From NCBI RefSeq assembly GCF_038637725.1, contig NZ_CP152052.1, forward strand, positions 851,501 through 915,500: a DNA stretch of 64,000 bases. Direction: 5' to 3'. Below the pieces are notes generated by a model. It saw only the letters and a list, made by a program, of their open reading frames with translations. It searched no databases and was not told the DNA's origin. Of the stretch, positions 11,142 to 55,903 are shown in pieces. The translations under genes and the position numbers were made by a program. The DNA comes from Psychrobacillus sp. FSL H8-0483. GTDB lineage: Bacteria > Bacillota > Bacilli > Bacillales_A > Planococcaceae. Position 1 is the stretch's first letter, and each line of letters opens with the position of its first letter.

Positions 11142-13373
11142 CTATGCTCTATGTTGTTCTAAATAAATCTTCTCTATTTCGTCCGCGGGAAGTGGTTTGC
11201 TAAAGAAATAACCCTGTGAGATATCACACTGGTGATTTTTCAGAAAATCAAGCTGTTCCTTTGTTTCCACACCTTCTGCAATCACCTCCTTATGTAGGTT
11301 GTGTGCTAACGTGATAATTGCTTTTACAATAATGGCATCCTCCTCATTGTTCATTAATCCACTAACGAAGGATCTGTCGATCTTAATATAATCAATCGGA
11401 AAATTTTTTAAATAATTTAGCGAGCTATAGCCTGTCCCGAAATCATCAATACTGATACCAATACCGAGTGCTTTTAGCTGTTCCAATACGTGAATGGAGT
11501 ATTCGTACTCCATCGCCATATATTCAGTGATCTCCACGACAACATATGCCGGATCGATCGCTGTACGTTCCAACACCTCTTCCATAAATGGGATGAGATT
11601 TCCAGTAAGGAATTGTTGCGTCGATAGATTAACGGACATTTTTACCGGTATCATTCCAGCATCTTGCCATTTTTTGTTTTGAGAACAGGCCTCATCGATG
11701 ACCCACTCTCCAATTTGGGTGATCAATCCGTTTTCTTCTGCCAGCTTTATAAATTTTCCTGGAGGTATTTGACCTAACGTAGGATGCTGCCAGCGAATTA
11801 ACGCTTCAAATCCAACCAATTTACCGGTATCGTTATTAATTTGGGGCTGATAATGGAGAACAAACTCATTTTTCTCCAGTGCTCTTCTTAAATCGACCTC
11901 AAGCATGTATTCATCCATCATTGCATCTAATAATTCAGAGGTATGAACAACATAGCGATTTTTCCCTTGCGATTTTGCCTGGTACATCGCATTATCAGCG
12001 TAGACCATGAGCTGTTCCATTGTAATTGGGTAGTCGGGATAAATAGCAACCCCGATACTCGCTGTCGTATGTAATTCTTTCCCGCTGACATGAAAAGGTT
12101 GTCGCACCAGTTGGAGTATCTCTTCAGCTTTTTTCGTGACATAATCCAGATCAACAAAATCTTTCAGTATGAAAATAAATTCATCGCCACCCATTCGAGC
12201 AAGTATATCCTTTTCCCCAAGACATCCACATAAACGCTTGCTTACCTCGATAAGGAGTTTATCTCCGTAAGAATGATTAAAGTTATCATTAATGATTTTA
12301 AAACGATCTAGGTCTATGTATAAAAGGGCTAAAGTCCTATGATGACCTGCATTTAGGTCCTTGATAATGGATTCTATTTCCTTATTAATATATCGTCTGT
12401 TTGGTAGATTTGTTAAATCATCATGATAGGCTAAGTAGTTATACTTCTCCTGCAGTATGTAACGATCTGAAATGTCCCTAAACTGACCAAAGGCACCTAT
12501 CATTTTGTCTTCTTCATAAATTGGCTGTGCATCGAACAGGCAGACGATGAGGTTACCAGCGTCATCTTTAAATTTTATTTCTTCATTATTAAATATTCTT
12601 TCTTGTTCCAGTACTTCTTTAAAATACTCTCCCGTTAGATATGATTCACGAATATTTCTTCCCACAACCGAATCTCTACTGTTATTCGAAATTTTTTGTG
12701 CAAAGCTATTAAACTCGGTAGTGATTCCTTTCTCGTCTGTAATAACAATTCCATTTCTTGTTCTGCTTAACATAATCTGATTCATAATATTAAGCTTCTT
12801 ATTTTGTTTTCTTAATAATAATTCTCTTTCGATTGAGTCAACCGCCTGGGTTAGCATCGTTAAGAAAAGTGCATTCTGAAACTGGATGGGCATCATGAGG
12901 CATACACTGCCAAGCAAGTTATTGTCATCGGTATAGTGAAATGCGGTCCCGTAACAAGCAATGCCATGAAGAAACGTATGATAATGTTGTTCGCCAATAA
13001 GACTAATTGGGTGCTTTTGTTGCAATGATAGACTAATAACATTCGTGCCTGTATCTTCTTGGATGAATAGGCTGGCAGGTCTGATTCCGAATTGTTCGAT
13101 GGTAGACTTTATGGTTTCGTCTCCTTCAATTCCAAGAAGGAAACCGGTTGCATCCGAAACAACAACGAGTATCGGGGTGCCTTTTAAGGAATCCAGTAGC
13201 TTATTCGAGAAAAAACTAACAACTGACAATATTTCGCTATATGATTTTCTCTTCTTTTCAAACTCCACTTCGTTTAAAAAATTCTTTGGTCTTGATACCT
13301 CATTCGGATCCATCCCGGCCTCTATGCACATTCTCTTAGATTCTGTAATGTAGTATGGTTCCCTCGTATTCAT
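11142..13373 (-). CDS. Sensor-PAS-GGDEF-EAL cyclic-di-GMP protein
   Basis: 743 residues. The N-terminus (about 1-190) resembles the GAF-like sensory region of AcoR-type activators. A PAS domain follows (about 205-315, RNGIVITDEKGITTEFN). The diguanylate cyclase domain (about 325-480) has an intact GGDEF at 395-399. The product-inhibition site that should read RxxD five residues earlier is GEKD, so allosteric inhibition is probably lost. The EAL domain (about 490-740) keeps EAL at 523-525 and DDFGTGYSS, so phosphodiesterase activity is plausible. No membrane segments, hence cytoplasmic. It is the first gene of a likely three-gene operon, with 15 bases to the ThDP gene. GGAGGAG precedes the ATG. 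Confidence 0.88.
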   Translation of the reverse strand: MNTREPYYITESKRMCIEAGMDPNEVSRPKNFLNEVEFEKKRKSYSEILSVVSFFSNKLLDSLKGTPILVVVSDATGFLLGIEGDETIKSTIEQFGIRPASLFIQEDTGTNVISLSLQQKHPISLIGEQHYHTFLHGIACYGTAFHYTDDNNLLGSVCLMMPIQFQNALFLTMLTQAVDSIERELLLRKQNKKLNIMNQIMLSRTRNGIVITDEKGITTEFNSFAQKISNNSRDSVVGRNIRESYLTGEYFKEVLEQERIFNNEEIKFKDDAGNLIVCLFDAQPIYEEDKMIGAFGQFRDISDRYILQEKYNYLAYHDDLTNLPNRRYINKEIESIIKDLNAGHHRTLALLYIDLDRFKIINDNFNHSYGDKLLIEVSKRLCGCLGEKDILARMGGDEFIFILKDFVDLDYVTKKAEEILQLVRQPFHVSGKELHTTASIGVAIYPDYPITMEQLMVYADNAMYQAKSQGKNRYVVHTSELLDAMMDEYMLEVDLRRALEKNEFVLHYQPQINNDTGKLVGFEALIRWQHPTLGQIPPGKFIKLAEENGLITQIGEWVIDEACSQNKKWQDAGMIPVKMSVNLSTQQFLTGNLIPFMEEVLERTAIDPAYVVVEITEYMAMEYEYSIHVLEQLKALGIGISIDDFGTGYSSLNYLKNFPIDYIKIDRSFVSGLMNNEEDAIIVKAIITLAHNLHKEVIAEGVETKEQLDFLKNHQCDISQGYFFSKPLPADEIEKIYLEQHRA

Positions 13374-20726: not shown

Positions 20727-20759
20727 CTCTTCATCGAGCAATGATGAAGAGGCTTTTTT
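20727..20759 (+). terminator. Terminator preceding 21-bp array A1
   Basis: Stem CTCTTCATC / GATGAAGAG with GGC and TTTTTT. The T-tract runs straight into the array that begins at 20764. Confidence 0.75.
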
Positions 20760-20763
20760 GTGT

Positions 20764-20868
20764 TTTGTCGCGTTCGGCGTGTTGTTTGTCGCGTTCGATG
20801 GGTCGTTTGTCGTCTTCACTAGGCGGTTTGTCGCTTTCGGTCGCTAGTATGTCTCGTTTAGGATTATT
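20764..20868 (+). repeat. 21-bp periodic array A1 (5 units)
   Basis: Units begin at 20764, 20785, 20806, 20827 and 20848, exactly 21 bp apart, each with TTTGTCGCGTTC or a variant followed by 9 variable bases. The last unit has TCTCG and is followed by AGGATTATTTATCC. That flank and the following AATTAG-AAATAATGG also occur after array A2. Confidence 0.85.
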
Positions 20869-21112
20869 TATCCAATTTAATGAACTTGTAATTAGGAAAT
20901 AATGGGTTTGAATGCTGCAATGAATATCATCTTAGGTCTTTATTGTGCTGAGAGGGTTATTTTTATCAAATTTGTGTGGGTTTCTTGCACGAATAGAGAT
21001 TCAAATTAAGATTAATTTTCATTTTTTACAAAAATTTAACACTTTTATGACTTTCTTTTTGGTACAATATAATTGTTTCAATATTACAAATGAGAGATGA
21101 GGAATACTATTT

Positions 21113-23484: not shown

Positions 23485-23519
23485 AACCGCCTCTGTTTTT
23501 GTAGCAGAGGTGGTTTTTT
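23485..23519 (+). terminator. Terminator of the SLH-nucleotidase gene
   Basis: Stem ACCGCCTCTG / CAGAGGTGGT with TTTTTT. The last T residues are also the first bases of array A2. Confidence 0.85.
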
Positions 23520-23600
23520 GTCGTGTTCGGCAGTGGTTTTGTCGCGTTCACTAGGTGGTTTGTCGCTTTCGGCAATAGTTTTGTCTCGTTGAGGATTATT
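23517..23600 (+). repeat. 21-bp periodic array A2 (4 units)
   Basis: Units start at 23517, 23538, 23559 and 23580 with cores TTTGTCGTGTTC, TTTGTCGCGTTC, TTTGTCGCTTTC and TTTGTCTCGTTG. The last unit and its flank (GAGGATTATTTATCC) match the end of A1. Confidence 0.85.
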
Positions 23601-25387: not shown

Positions 25388-25447
25388 TACTAAGAATCGC
25401 AAGATAGACTGTGTAAATCGCAAGGTAACCTCCCCGAATCGCAAAAT
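25388..25447 (-). repeat. 21-bp periodic array B1 (3 units)
   Basis: AATCGCAA cores with TCGCA at 25397, 25418 and 25439, spaced 21 and 21. On the minus strand the cores read CTTGCGATT and the array begins just after the minus-strand T-tract of the hairpin at 25461-25490. Confidence 0.8.
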
Positions 25448-25525: not shown

Positions 25526-25630
25526 AATATGGCTGAACGAGACATTCTGTAGAGTGAACGCGACAAACTAAGACACGAACGCGACAAACAGCCACATGAA
25601 AACGACAAACCCACCACCGAAAGCGACAAA
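25526..25630 (-). repeat. 21-bp periodic array A3 (5 units)
   Basis: Reading the minus strand, units start at 25630, 25609, 25588, 25567 and 25546, exactly 21 apart: TTTGTCGCTTTC, TTTGTCGTTTTC, TTTGTCGCGTTC twice, AATGTCTCGTTC. The closing unit carries TCTCG as in A1 and A2. Confidence 0.85.
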
Positions 25631-27337: not shown

Positions 27338-27375
27338 GACGAATCGCAAGATCAACCCCTCAAATCGCAAATTTA
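27338..27375 (-). repeat. 21-bp periodic array B2 (2 units)
   Basis: TCGCA at 27344 and 27365, 21 bp apart, within AATCGCAA cores. On the minus strand it follows the terminator at 27403-27424. Confidence 0.6.
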
Positions 27376-28650: not shown

Positions 28651-28698
28651 AAAGGAGAATGTTAGATTATACAATGAGGTTAAAGAGGAGTGATTTAT

Positions 28699-29271
28699 AT
28701 GAGAGAAAAAAGTACTGTTTATTTTCCAGAGAACCCAGTTTCTCGATTCTTATTTAGTAGTACTCATTCTGCGGTTATTTGGTTAATTATCCGACTTTAT
28801 CTAGGTTCCACTTGGTTGAAAGCTGGTTGGGGGAAATTACACAATGATGCTTGGACAGGGGAAAATGCTGGAGCTGCACTCACCGGATTTGTGAATGGTG
28901 CACTTGCAAAATCACAGGAAGGCGCAGATGTGGCTAGATGGTTTGCAACTTTTCTTGAAAACACTGTGCTCCCACATGCAAAGTTGTTTTCGTTCGTAGT
29001 AGCATATGGCGAGTTATTAGTAGCATATGGCGAGTTATTAGTAGGATTGGGCTTAGTGTTCGGTTTACTTACTGGAATCGCAGCTTTTTTCGGTGCTTTC
29101 ATGAACGTCAGTTTTCTGTTTGCTGGAACGCTTAGTACTAATCCATTGCTTTTCATCCTAGCCACTTGGTTAGTACTTGCTTGGAAAGTAGCAGGATGGT
29201 ACGGATTGGATCGCTGGGCTCTGCCATTATTAGGTACTCCTTGGGATAGAAAAAAGAATAGTGCGCCTTAA
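28699..29271 (+). CDS. DoxX family membrane protein with internal 7-residue duplication
   Basis: 190 residues from the ATG at 28699, with AAGAGGAG upstream (a GTG at 28690 is inside the site). Four membrane helices fit the DoxX/thiosulfate-quinone-oxidoreductase-like fold. A conserved helix reads VVAYGELLVAYGELLVGLGLV: the 21-bp block for VAYGELL is duplicated perfectly in tandem (about 29002-29043), lengthening a membrane helix by two turns. Relatives are linked to quinone or respiratory redox chemistry, but for this protein the role is unknown. Monocistronic with a strong terminator. Confidence 0.82.
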   Translation: MREKSTVYFPENPVSRFLFSSTHSAVIWLIIRLYLGSTWLKAGWGKLHNDAWTGENAGAALTGFVNGALAKSQEGADVARWFATFLENTVLPHAKLFSFVVAYGELLVAYGELLVGLGLVFGLLTGIAAFFGAFMNVSFLFAGTLSTNPLLFILATWLVLAWKVAGWYGLDRWALPLLGTPWDRKKNSAP

Positions 29272-30841: not shown

Positions 30842-30940
30842 GTAATCGCAAAATCGACTCAACGAATCGCAAAATATGGCCTCTAATCGCAAGATAGACA
30901 CTAATAATCGCAAGTTCACCAAAGTAAATCGCAAGATTGG
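30842..30940 (-). repeat. 21-bp periodic array B3 (5 units)
   Basis: AATCGCAA cores at 30846, 30867, 30887, 30908 and 30929 (TCGCA starts), spaced 21, 20, 21, 21. It lies between the divergent genes at 30756 and 31228, and unlike the others I see no terminator before it. Confidence 0.8.
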
Positions 30941-45874: not shown

Positions 45875-46284
45875 GCGACTGTTTATTGACAGTCGTTTTT
45901 TTTGGTTGCGGTTAGGGTGGAATTGGTCTCGGTTGCAGGTAAATTGGTCTCGCTCAGAAGCGATTTGGTCTCGGTTACAGTAATTTGGTTGCGATAAGCC
46001 ATTTATTGTAAATGAAATCTGATTCGTGCAATGATTTAGCTTAGGGCGACAGTTTATTTTCAGTCGTTTTATATTTGGTTGCGGTTAGGGTGGAATTGGT
46101 CTCGGTTACAGGTAAACTGGTCTCGCTTAGAAGCGATTTGGTCTCGGTTAAAGTGATTTGATTGCGATAAGCCATTTATTGTAAATGAAATCTGATTCCT
46201 GCAATGATTTAGCTTGGGGCGACTGTTTTCTGACAGTCGATTTTTTTTTGGTTGCGATAAGCCATTTATTGTATAAGAAATCTG
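45875..46284 (+). repeat. Tandem 171-bp repeat containing array C (three copies)
   Basis: A terminator hairpin GCGACTGT...ACAGTCG with T-tract, five TTGGTCTCGGTT-type units and the common tail TAAGCCATTTATTG-AAATCTGA recur at 45875-46045 (171 bp), 46046-46218 (173 bp) and 46219-46284. The third copy has only one unit. Units start at 45902, 45923, 45944, 45965, 45985 and at 46075, 46096, 46117, 46138, 46158: spacing 21, 21, 21, 20 in both. It fills the long gap before the M23 gene. Confidence 0.85.
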
Positions 46285-46355
46285 AACTTTATTTATTCAT
46301 GAAACAAGCTGAACTGGGAATCCTATTTAAAGTATTAAAAAAGGAGGTATTTTGT

Positions 46356-47357
46356 TTGATTCACTGGATTAAAATCACCTTTTCCATAAGTGTCCTATTT
46401 TTTCTCTTTGCTTTCACTGTTTTAGCAGAAGAAAAAGTGCCGTCGAGAGAAGAAATTTTAGAAAATCGGATGGATTATTATATTAAGTATTCTACGGATA
46501 CCTTACCTTGGTATTATCTGGCTGCGGTGGATCAATATGAACGGAATATTCAAGAAGTCCGCAATGATATACCTAAAAGCGAAGGTGTAGTTGCTATTCA
46601 GTTTTCCGAGGACTTTTGGACTGGAGTACTGAATCCGTTAAAGAATGATACGGATTTAACCTCGATTGTTTTCTTTGCTGGTAATGGAGTTGATGGTAAT
46701 AATGATGAATTGGCCGATCGAGTAAATGACGATGATGTCATGTTGACATTGACTCAATATTTAAGTGCTCGTGTTCATTCCGAAAGAGATTTTAAAAAGG
46801 CTCTTAAAGAGTATTATGTGCGAGATATGACCGTTAATCAGATTATGACCAATGCTAAAATTTACAAGCATTTTGAAATGTTGAATTTGGATAAGCGTGC
46901 TTTTCCTCTTTCTATTCGACACGATTATAGTTATCGCAGTACTTGGGGAGATAGAAGAGGCTGGGGCGGACGTCGAATGCACGAAGGTACTGATTTGTTT
47001 TCCTTTAGTGGAGTTCCTGTGAAGTCTGCTACATATGGTGTGGTAGAAACAAAGGGGTGGAATGATTATGGGGGCTGGCGAATTGGCATTCGAGATGTAA
47101 ATAATACGTATCACTATTATGCCCATTTATCGAGTTTTGCGAAAGGAATAGAAGAAGGGGACATTCTGGAACCTGGTTCAGTCATTGGTTATGTTGGTAG
47201 TTCGGGATATGGGAAGAAAGGGACTTCTGGTAAGTTTCCTCCTCATCTTCACTACGGTATGTATAAATATAATGGGCGGACAGAATGGGCTTACGATCCT
47301 TATCCTTTATTGAAAAAATGGGAAAGAGAAGAAAAAAGTGCAGTTAAAAAGCAATAA
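46356..47357 (+). CDS. Secreted M23 (LytM-type) peptidase
   Basis: 333 residues from the TTG at 46356, with AAGGAGGT 7 bases upstream; the longer frame from 46185 reads through the repeats and is unlikely. Signal-anchor (about 1-25). A helical N-terminal region (about 40-190) precedes the zinc domain (about 215-320), with HxxxD in RRMHEGTDLF and HxH in PPHLHYGMY. These enzymes cut peptide cross-bridges in peptidoglycan. Monocistronic with a terminator. Confidence 0.86.
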   Translation: MIHWIKITFSISVLFFLFAFTVLAEEKVPSREEILENRMDYYIKYSTDTLPWYYLAAVDQYERNIQEVRNDIPKSEGVVAIQFSEDFWTGVLNPLKNDTDLTSIVFFAGNGVDGNNDELADRVNDDDVMLTLTQYLSARVHSERDFKKALKEYYVRDMTVNQIMTNAKIYKHFEMLNLDKRAFPLSIRHDYSYRSTWGDRRGWGGRRMHEGTDLFSFSGVPVKSATYGVVETKGWNDYGGWRIGIRDVNNTYHYYAHLSSFAKGIEEGDILEPGSVIGYVGSSGYGKKGTSGKFPPHLHYGMYKYNGRTEWAYDPYPLLKKWEREEKSAVKKQ

Positions 47358-55003: not shown

Positions 55004-55741
55004 TTAGCTACCAGAAGCTACTTTTGCAGAAATTCTTTTACCGGTTTCGATTACTTTAGTTCTTAGGTATTCTAGACGTTCTTCTGTGAGGTTGAAGCTG
55101 ACGACACCTATGCTGATGGCACCAATAACTCGGCCAAAGCCGTCTTTTATAGATACAGCAATTGATGACGTGCCTTCCGTTCTTTCTGAATGGCTTATGG
55201 CAAAGCCTTGTTTTCTAATATCCTCCAGCGTTTTTTGGAATTCGGCAATTTTATCAGCAGGTAACAACTGAGGTAAAATAGCGATTGATTTGTCTGTAGA
55301 CATCGCGGCTAGCATGGCCTTGTTTGCTGCACCGATGTTCATTGGGATACGTAAACCGAGTTGGTCATAAATTCGAATCGGGTTTTTTTCGCTGTCGATT
55401 CTTTCTACGATGATTGCTTCATTACCAAGTGGCTTGTTTAAATAGACGCTTTCCTCAACTTCTTTGGACAATCGTTCTAATTCTGGTCTAATTTTGCTGA
55501 CATAATCGATAGATTCATACACTTGCAGTCCGTATTCCAGCCAACGTATTCCAAGTCGATAGGTTTTAGAACGTTCGTCTTGTTCGACTAGCCCTTGTTT
55601 GATCATTGCTTGCAGGAGTCTGTGCATCGTACTAAGTGGAAGCTCACATTGCTTAGATAAATCTGATATGGTAACGCCATTTTCCGTTGAGTGAGATGCT
55701 AATACTTTTGCAACGGTCATGGCTCGGATGATAGATTGCAT
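55004..55741 (-). CDS. IclR family transcriptional regulator
   Basis: 245 residues from the ATG at 55741. The N-terminal winged helix (about 5-65, VTISDLSKQCELPLSTMHRLLQAMIKQGLVEQD) and a C-terminal effector-binding GAF-type domain (about 80-240, NIGAANKAMLA and GFAISHSERTEGTSSIAVSIKD) are typical. IclR proteins regulate carbon and amino-acid catabolic genes. It is divergent from rocB, with two palindromes between them at 55833-55870, so control of rocB is the simplest reading. It is monocistronic. Confidence 0.88.
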   Translation of the reverse strand: MQSIIRAMTVAKVLASHSTENGVTISDLSKQCELPLSTMHRLLQAMIKQGLVEQDERSKTYRLGIRWLEYGLQVYESIDYVSKIRPELERLSKEVEESVYLNKPLGNEAIIVERIDSEKNPIRIYDQLGLRIPMNIGAANKAMLAAMSTDKSIAILPQLLPADKIAEFQKTLEDIRKQGFAISHSERTEGTSSIAVSIKDGFGRVIGAISIGVVSFNLTEERLEYLRTKVIETGKRISAKVASGS

Positions 55742-55832
55742 ATAATACACCGCCTATTTTTATATATAAATAAAAAAGTTTTCTTAATATATTGACATTA
55801 TATCATGGAGCATCTATATTTTAAATATAAAC

Positions 55833-55870
55833 TTTCCGATATACGGAAACGTTTTCCGCTCAGTGGAAAA
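55833..55870. promoter_or_regulatory. Two tandem palindromes between the IclR gene and rocB
   Basis: TTTCCGATATACGGAAA (6-bp arms, 55833-55849) and TTTTCC...GGAAAA (55852-55870) have centres 20 bases apart, about two helix turns. Both match the TTTCC/GGAAA half-sites usual for IclR-family operators. Confidence 0.6.
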
Positions 55871-55879
55871 TGTGGTGAG

Positions 55880-55903
55880 TTATTAAGGTGCCAGGCACCC
55901 ACA
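55880..55903. repeat. GTGCCAGGCAC palindrome, copy 8 (short)
   Basis: AAGGTGCCAGGCACCCAC; outer ends lost. It lies within the IclR-rocB intergenic region. Confidence 0.65.

Follow-up and report, generated by a model that had tools for sequence, protein, structure and literature searches.

Short tandem repeats of constant size have been described in Bacillus. Surveying 176 Bacillus genomes, Subirana and Messeguer (2021) found that 66.2% of the 4029 tandem repeats have units of either 20-21 or 51-53 nt, without sequence conservation, and B. simplex, B. muralis and B. weihaiensis are rich in the 21-nt form (PMC8161180). A short signal is found in all repeats, TCGCGG in B. weihaiensis, and the authors, who noted that the unit corresponds to two helical turns, proposed either proteins polymerising on the DNA or RNAs; in the parts of the paper available to us, no tested mechanism accompanies the class (PMC8161180). 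We calculate that a 52-nt unit would span roughly five helical turns, a length that fits phasing too. The arrays reported here, from Psychrobacillus sp. FSL H8-0483, are equally of 20-21 nt and non-coding, in both cases several families of the same length and different sequence occur in one genome, and a short signal is present in every repeat, here too as judged by the information per position. The arrays thus have the main features of this class, which is itself not new, and the remark in an earlier note on this DNA that no named family like this was known has to be withdrawn, since non-coding bacterial repeats of 20-21 nt with constant size and variable sequence are in print (PMC8161180). 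A term search of the main text of that paper found neither Psychrobacillus nor Viridibacillus. As far as this text goes, it contains no five-site order, terminal unit with tail, conservation at orthologous sites, type switching, gene-orientation statistics or link to Bacillaceae-1 RNA, so that the additions made here are the anatomy, position, site conservation and type switching of the arrays, and a composite with Bacillaceae-1 RNA.

Other systems share some of these features. LytTR operators, such as those of RcoM and CoxC, are direct repeats about two turns apart, as here, but consist of two or three repeats at promoters (PMC11347149), and the arrays match their motif only in part. BldC-type oligomers are formed by a small polymerising protein on non-palindromic direct repeats of varying number, in which the repeats here are alike, but each protomer takes about 9 bp, or one turn, versus 21 bp here (PMC5859096). 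TIGR arrays lie beside a tas gene and contain two alternating repeats of 8-12 nt that are processed to 36-nt RNAs; their short repeats and variable spacers of fixed length (about 9 nt) resemble the present ones, but the units measure about 36 nt versus a period of 21 or 42, and here tens of short arrays are dispersed in 3' regions (PMC12045711). None of ten window genes near arrays matched a Nop-domain family, and three of them matched no Pfam family. The REP/BIME elements of enterobacteria are high-copy, extragenic, located at gene 3' ends, and differ in family between species. They are palindromic hairpins, whereas the arrays, likewise high-copy, extragenic and 3', are direct repeats without structure (44 arrays).

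The window is the whole stretch of 64,000 nucleotides that was analysed (G000:C1:851501-915500), part of a single-contig genome of 4,136,829 bp. Other genomes named below include Psychrobacillus sp. OK032 (G012) and Bacillus sp. FJAT-22090 (G014, strain DE0292), both of the same genus as the window, and Viridibacillus arvi (G022). All nine places listed in the earlier note, with about 35 units, are present in the window sequence, as eight arrays and one lone unit with 35 units counted, and the steps are indeed 21 bp except for three of 20 bp, one each in the 30844, 45902 and 46075 arrays (Table 1). The fifth unit of the 46075 array was assigned by eye from the sequence, automatic chaining having ended at the fourth, and the lone unit at 46248 is a third, shortened copy of the 45902/46075 element. 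The mechanical ORF of an M23 peptidase (46185-47357, plus strand) begins upstream, amid the repeats; its likelier start is the in-frame TTG at 46356, which follows AAAGGAGG (46340), and automatic gene calls may therefore extend into arrays. A perfect 21-bp tandem repeat inside the ORF at 28690-29271 (28997-29044) is unrelated in sequence to the arrays. At gathering score, Rfam gave a single match in the window, a Bacillaceae-1 RNA (RF01690; 54886-54980, minus strand, 49.9 bits).

Table 1. Repeat arrays and associated features in the window (window coordinates).
Feature	Position	Strand	Details
Terminator-like hairpin and T run	20727..20760	+	Directly 5' of the 20764 array; read from the sequence
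A-type array, 5 units	20764..20860	+	TTTGTCGCGTTC class; steps 21, 21, 21, 21; last unit TATGTCTCGTTT
Tail AGGATTATTTATCC past last unit	20860..20873	+	Present behind the 23517 array too
A-type array, 4 units	23517..23592	+	Steps 21, 21, 21
B-type array (TTGCGATT), 3 units	25395..25444	-	Steps 21, 21
A-type array, 5 units	25534..25630	-	Every step 21
B-type unit pair	27342..27370	-	Step 21
B-type array, 5 units	30844..30934	-	Steps 21, 21, 20, 21 (minus-strand reading)
C-type array (TTGGTCTCGGTT / TTGGTTGCGGTT), 5 units	45902..45997	+	Steps 21, 21, 21, 20; then tail AAGCCATTTATTG
C-type array, 5 units	46075..46170	+	Last step 20; repeats the 45902 element in tandem (173-bp super-repeat)
Lone C-type terminal unit TTGGTTGCGATAA	46248..46260	+	Hairpin before, tail after

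At 10.5 bp per turn, 21 bp corresponds to two turns of the helix. In the 4,136,829-bp chromosome the A core TTTGTCGCGTTC has 14 matches versus none for the reversed word. When the spacing was left free, this genome contained 31 pairs of the A core (TTTGTC type), 25 at 21 bp and 6 at 42 bp, and 14 pairs of the B core, 13 at 21 and 1 at 20, with no pair for either reversed word. C-type pairs, searched at a fixed spacing of 21 with up to two mismatches, numbered 82 versus 4 for the reversed pattern, the 82 including at least three (2061688, 3967731 and 965724) that resemble coding or chance matches. A PWM trained on units 21 bp apart was run on 299,927 bp of FSL H8-0483 loci, mostly array-bearing and including the window, and at its loosest threshold gave 113 pairs at 21 and 9 at 20, with 1, 1 and 2 pairs at 19, 22 and 23, and none at 20 or 21 on the reversed sequence of the same 299,927 bp. 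Free spacing in six relatives gave 73 pairs by hand count, 71 at 21, one at 20 and one at 41. Three further cores, two taken from syntenic blocks and one from the congener G013, were searched in 19 genomes in the same way: the E core TTATCCGATT gave 25 pairs (24 at 21, 1 at 20), the H core TCCGCAAGGTT 47 (16 at 21, 1 at 19, 23 at 42, 7 at 40), and the core TCTCAGAAAATC 32 (12 at 21, 13 at 20, 7 others), with zero pairs for each of the reversed controls. Counted as single steps with the period free, 21 bp accounts for 25/25 steps in A, 13/14 in B, 24/25 in E, 16/17 in H and 71/72 in the six relatives. These counts across cores indicate that 21 bp is the rule, that 20 bp is tolerated, and that one family is split. 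The proposal that the period is fixed and does not vary freely thus holds for four of the five cores, found almost only at 21 (or 42), and fails for the TCTCAGAAAATC family, which mixes 20 and 21 about equally; enrichment of the spaced core elsewhere in the genome and in relatives, on which a check set in advance turned, was found as well.

The same step emerged without any core being specified. Autocorrelation at lags of 12-44, on the window and three syntenic blocks that had been selected for holding arrays (which our own ORF calls divide into about 106 kb of intergenic and 476 kb of coding sequence), detected 56 intergenic periodic segments, 45 at 21, 9 at 42, and one each at 35 and 38. The coding part gave 21 segments, at 12, 18, 21, 24, 30, 33 and 36; six of them were at 21, among them the one at window position 20759, which is the first array beneath a small over-called ORF, and the one at 28992, a true coding repeat. 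Evenly spaced samples were not selected in this way. Among them G013, which has no A/C profile match, had three segments, all at 21 or 42 and built on three other cores; G204 had one at 21 and G180 one at 27, and no periodic intergenic segment was present in G008, G091, G123 or 100 kb of E. coli. In some arrays alternate units match best, giving the period of 42. That 33 arrays could be aligned without gaps does not prove the period, since all of them had been selected for five units at 21.

According to the earlier note, all arrays align as one core. The A and C cores do align well, as T-K-G-T-Y-K-C-G-N-T-T, but the B core fits only the right half of it, being identical to the last part of the C variant TTGGTTGCGATT; one common core is therefore established for A and C and, on sequence grounds, only suggested for B. 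In FSL H8-0483 most core positions carry about 1-2 bits of information and three carry 0.4-0.8, whereas spacer positions 13-18 carry 0-0.2 bits (up to 0.7 in OK032 and 1.3 in Viridibacillus). The commonest form measures exactly 97 bp, corresponding to five units, in 29 of the 62 arrays in the three blocks. Its units differ by rank, tandem copies being included in the counts: in five-unit A-type arrays with all steps at 21 (n = 16) the first unit is GTCGCTTTGG in about six out of ten, and the last has GTCTCG versus GTCGCG, GTCGTG or GTCGCT in the others, while in the corresponding C-type arrays (n = 15) it is chiefly the fourth unit that is distinct, with GTTGCG in about seven out of ten. The last unit is followed by a tail, often AGCCATTTATTG or AGGATTATTTATCC. 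In Viridibacillus, terminal unit and tail together read TTTGTTATTTAGCAGAATATTCACGTCC, with few changes in most of the G022 and G275 arrays listed and with more divergence in those listed for G276. The commonest form is thus an ordered five-site element and not an open-ended repeat, and at several sites whole elements are tandemly duplicated. The families found were A, B, C and E in FSL H8-0483, C, A, E and F in G003, and A, D and E in OK032, where one array has five identical cores between unrelated spacers. The strand composition of the arrays is T.40, G.29, C.16 and A.14. A further 21-bp family with the core ATCCGCYCCTA is present in the OK032 block (12303-12700 and 55257-55890), in one case in a region orthologous to a C-type array of FSL H8-0483.

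By our own ORF calls, and after dropping five small ORFs (<190 aa) overlying arrays, 60 of the 62 block arrays are intergenic. Together with the 20-bp steps, which break the reading frame, this agrees with the earlier view that the arrays are not coding, and a protein-coding repeat was rejected for these reasons. Among intergenic regions of at least 100 bp in the three blocks, an array was present in 15/44 convergent, 19/145 tandem and 2/49 divergent ones (convergent versus divergent, p = 2.6e-4, with orthologous regions pooled and hence not fully independent), confirming the suspected tendency towards gene 3' sides and differing from the promoter position of LytTR operators. In tandem regions (FSL H8-0483 loci plus two blocks) the arrays ran with the genes 17 times and against them 14 times, and as both directions occur no link to the direction of transcription was seen; an initial view that arrays are oriented like the gene upstream broke down in OK032, where 8 of 9 tandem cases ran against it. 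A terminator-like hairpin lies just before 21 of 75 arrays versus 5 of 75 reversed controls. A Rho or terminator function, which the strand composition had suggested, was considered and rejected, since orientation is free, only these 21 arrays are preceded by a hairpin, and the A type is poor in YC steps (8.6 per 100 nt of the C-rich strand versus 13.5 in the C type). As to replication polarity, arrays occur on both strands within one chromosome half of FSL H8-0483. On scaffolds C15, C17 and C18 of Viridibacillus arvi all 31 of 31 two-unit matches are on the plus strand, the FSL H8-0483 genome being mixed.

Sites are shared between species. Orthologous regions of FSL H8-0483 and G003 contained an array in both genomes in 6 cases, in FSL H8-0483 only in 2, in G003 only in 4 and in neither in 31; the corresponding numbers were 5, 4, 2 and 43 for FSL H8-0483 and OK032, and 3, 4, 2 and 34 for G003 and OK032. 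For the first pair the sharing has p ~0.02 when stratified by gene orientation, versus 0.0008 unstratified. At the 10 distinct shared sites the orientation of the array agrees at 9, while its type can switch: one convergent site has a C-type array in FSL H8-0483, five copies of a related C type in G003 and an A-type array in OK032, and at another a C type stands against a different family, TATCCGCTC, in OK032. Two FSL H8-0483 array sites are empty in OK032, where only the terminator remains. Compared unit by unit, the spacers of arrays at shared sites show 24-68% identity, with in-register identity exceeding out-of-register identity in only 3 of 7 comparable pairs, whereas alignable array-free regions are 73-74% identical, with 0.06-0.08 gap openings per mismatch (regions below 60% identity left out). 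Units are thus replaced at a rate that point mutation does not account for, and the contrast between core and spacer is therefore not plain purifying selection; depletion of indels in spacers was dropped as proof, since spacers seem replaced rather than drifting. The arrays are therefore inherited in place, with units that turn over quickly. Identical spacers between loci numbered 6 in FSL H8-0483 (100 shuffles: mean 1.4, highest 5), 0 in G003 (shuffled 0.5) and 2 in OK032 (shuffled 1.9), which indicates at most a little exchange of spacers between loci, in the FSL H8-0483 genome.

The explanation that we prefer for the observed period, core/spacer contrast, five-site anatomy, position, site sharing and unstructured RNA, and to which we would give nearly even chances, is that the arrays are phased docking sites for a sequence-specific DNA-binding protein, whose binding we infer. 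Spacing that stays constant while the words change points to docking sites for proteins in a row, and units of 21 bp fit binding to the same face of the DNA. Recognition sites of about 12 bp, mostly five per array and spaced two helical turns, would be occupied by copies of one such protein sitting side by side on one DNA face, presumably assembling along the array. This arrangement is suggested by the two-turn step that is kept across unrelated words, by the nearly information-free spacers of FSL H8-0483, and by the absence of RNA structure and of a tie to the direction of transcription. The element would occupy dead space past gene ends, where it would be inherited at fixed sites and turned over, with the recognition word drifting between species and the geometry being kept. 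The role would probably be a structural one, each array forming a small patch of nucleoprotein that lies between transcription units. A more far-reaching version, in which the arrays are ordered five-site platforms for a chromatin-like protein family, with a drifting word and a constant geometry, site and orientation, we regard as rather unlikely.

Patchy distribution, high copy number in some species, membership of a composite and fast turnover all speak against a simple host function, and keep our estimate for docking sites where it is. A rival reading is selfish dispersed DNA, in which the arrays would be the recognition sites of a mobilising or copying enzyme, retained in 3' regions only since insertions do no harm there, and of no benefit to the host; we consider this unlikely, though a serious contender. 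A sequence-only profile, trained on 33 five-unit arrays of FSL H8-0483 and related genomes, matched 41 times in FSL H8-0483 (each tandem copy being one match here and below), 44-80 times in five congeners, and at least 135 and at least 137 times in two, where high counts are possibly underestimates given that 150 candidates per genome were scored. Elsewhere among the 19 genomes it matched 13 times in one, 4 times in one, once in each of three and not at all in six. The element is therefore not needed in every species, and a range from 0 to >130 within one genus is what selfish DNA could produce; a 199-kb sample of one of the six congeners without a profile match contained no array. The A and C types are common to several species of the genus, and E, H and F occur in 4, 3 and 2 of the 19 genomes, respectively. 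A two-unit pattern matched in 44 of 261 genomes of the order, with only 1-3 matches per genome, near the reversed control, outside Psychrobacillus and Viridibacillus. Among the matches listed, those in Bacillaceae without a long ORF were from Peribacillus saganii, Filobacillus milosensis and Evansella clarkii, with frames of 77-204 codons that make them possibly coding. The non-Bacillales stretches among at least 118 matched were mostly ORFs of >100 codons or plain tandem repeats, and were excluded by eye.

In Bacillus sp. FJAT-22090 (loci L363-L382) the array is part of a composite element, several hundred bp long and dispersed, that has Bacillaceae-1-like ends. Twenty loci were obtained, of which L369 was left out as part of another local tandem array; 18 of the 19 compared have a common flank on at least one side, and L377 has only array and tail in common with the others. 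In five aligned copies the end resembles TATAGGGATA.TGCGTC and recurs, as an imperfect inversion, on the opposite side, and the composite contains one full array, most aligned copies also carrying, as judged by eye, a remnant array in the opposite direction. A Bacillaceae-1 RNA match was found in 5 of 9 FJAT-22090 loci tested. At L296, L297 and L298 (G010) and L294 (G016), A-type and TGGTTGCTCT-type arrays stand back to back and read outward from the common centre CTCACTYCAAGTAAACTTGCTATT, with a Bacillaceae-1 match adjoining one of these four loci. Bacillaceae-1 may travel within a MITE-like element, MITEs being characterised by terminal inverted repeats and target duplication. This composite with its inverted ends, the clean absences at orthologous sites, and the free orientation and avoidance of divergent regions all speak for selfish DNA. 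Against it, the end sequence of the composite (15-mer, up to two mismatches) was not found at the solo arrays in the FSL H8-0483 loci scanned, sites and orientation are common to several species, and neither viral contigs, searched with two A/C patterns, nor plasmids and phages, searched with one A-type array, gave a match. According to an earlier paper by Subirana and Messeguer, transposition of non-coding satellites is rare in prokaryotes (PMC6749651).

Mutation alone, with tandem units arising by copying in inherent steps of about 21 bp and the core being simply the part that has not yet diverged, we regard as improbable. A period that holds across unrelated cores is what a core-independent process would give, and whole elements are tandemly duplicated too, but a recent duplication would leave spacers as similar to each other as cores, whereas the FSL H8-0483 spacers are nearly empty and the cores carry 1-2 bits at most positions. 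The OK032 array with identical cores and unrelated spacers argues against such a process as well, and units that differ by rank are not expected from it.

A role at the RNA level, with arrays transcribed into small or sponge RNAs, seems less probable again. In B. coagulans, repeats of the 52-nt class are transcribed, according to the part of the report available (PMC8625621), and the strand bias in composition is strong. However, 44 arrays showed no structure beyond that of shuffled sequences (mean z -0.05 sense and -0.55 antisense), no Rfam family matched the window arrays or 12 other loci at gathering score, orientation is free relative to tandem genes, a period exact to one base is unneeded by an RNA code, and the YC content of the A type leaves a Rho-type reading weak. 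Least probable of all is a LytTR-domain protein as the binder: these domains recognise 8-9-bp direct repeats in pairs or triplets about two turns apart, the CoxC repeats following at 18-21-bp intervals with the motif TTNNNGCN (PMC11347149), the A and Viridibacillus cores contain TTNNNGC, and in one case only, in G003, an array (3001578; G003:C1:3001236-3001682) starts shortly 3' of a LytTR gene, but C-type GTCTCG units are without the motif, the sites described lie at promoters (PMC11347149) while the arrays avoid divergent regions, and the number of LytTR genes (2 to 6 in 19/19 genomes, four in FSL H8-0483) does not track that of arrays, no binder having been found.

For this class of repeat, Psychrobacillus is a tractable case, with compact five-site elements, sister species that have different cores at one site, and congeners without these cores. 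What recognises a constant 21-bp phase although the words change is a directly testable question. If the five-site platform reading is true, an array would keep its place in a given gene gap while its core differs from one sister species to the next, and bacteria would have a structural DNA code whose lasting part is the spacing and not the sequence. A protein, if one is found, would add a new type of sequence-directed component to the nucleoid; should none be found, the arrays would serve as a clear-cut case of strictly stepped DNA that is either selfish or driven by mutation.
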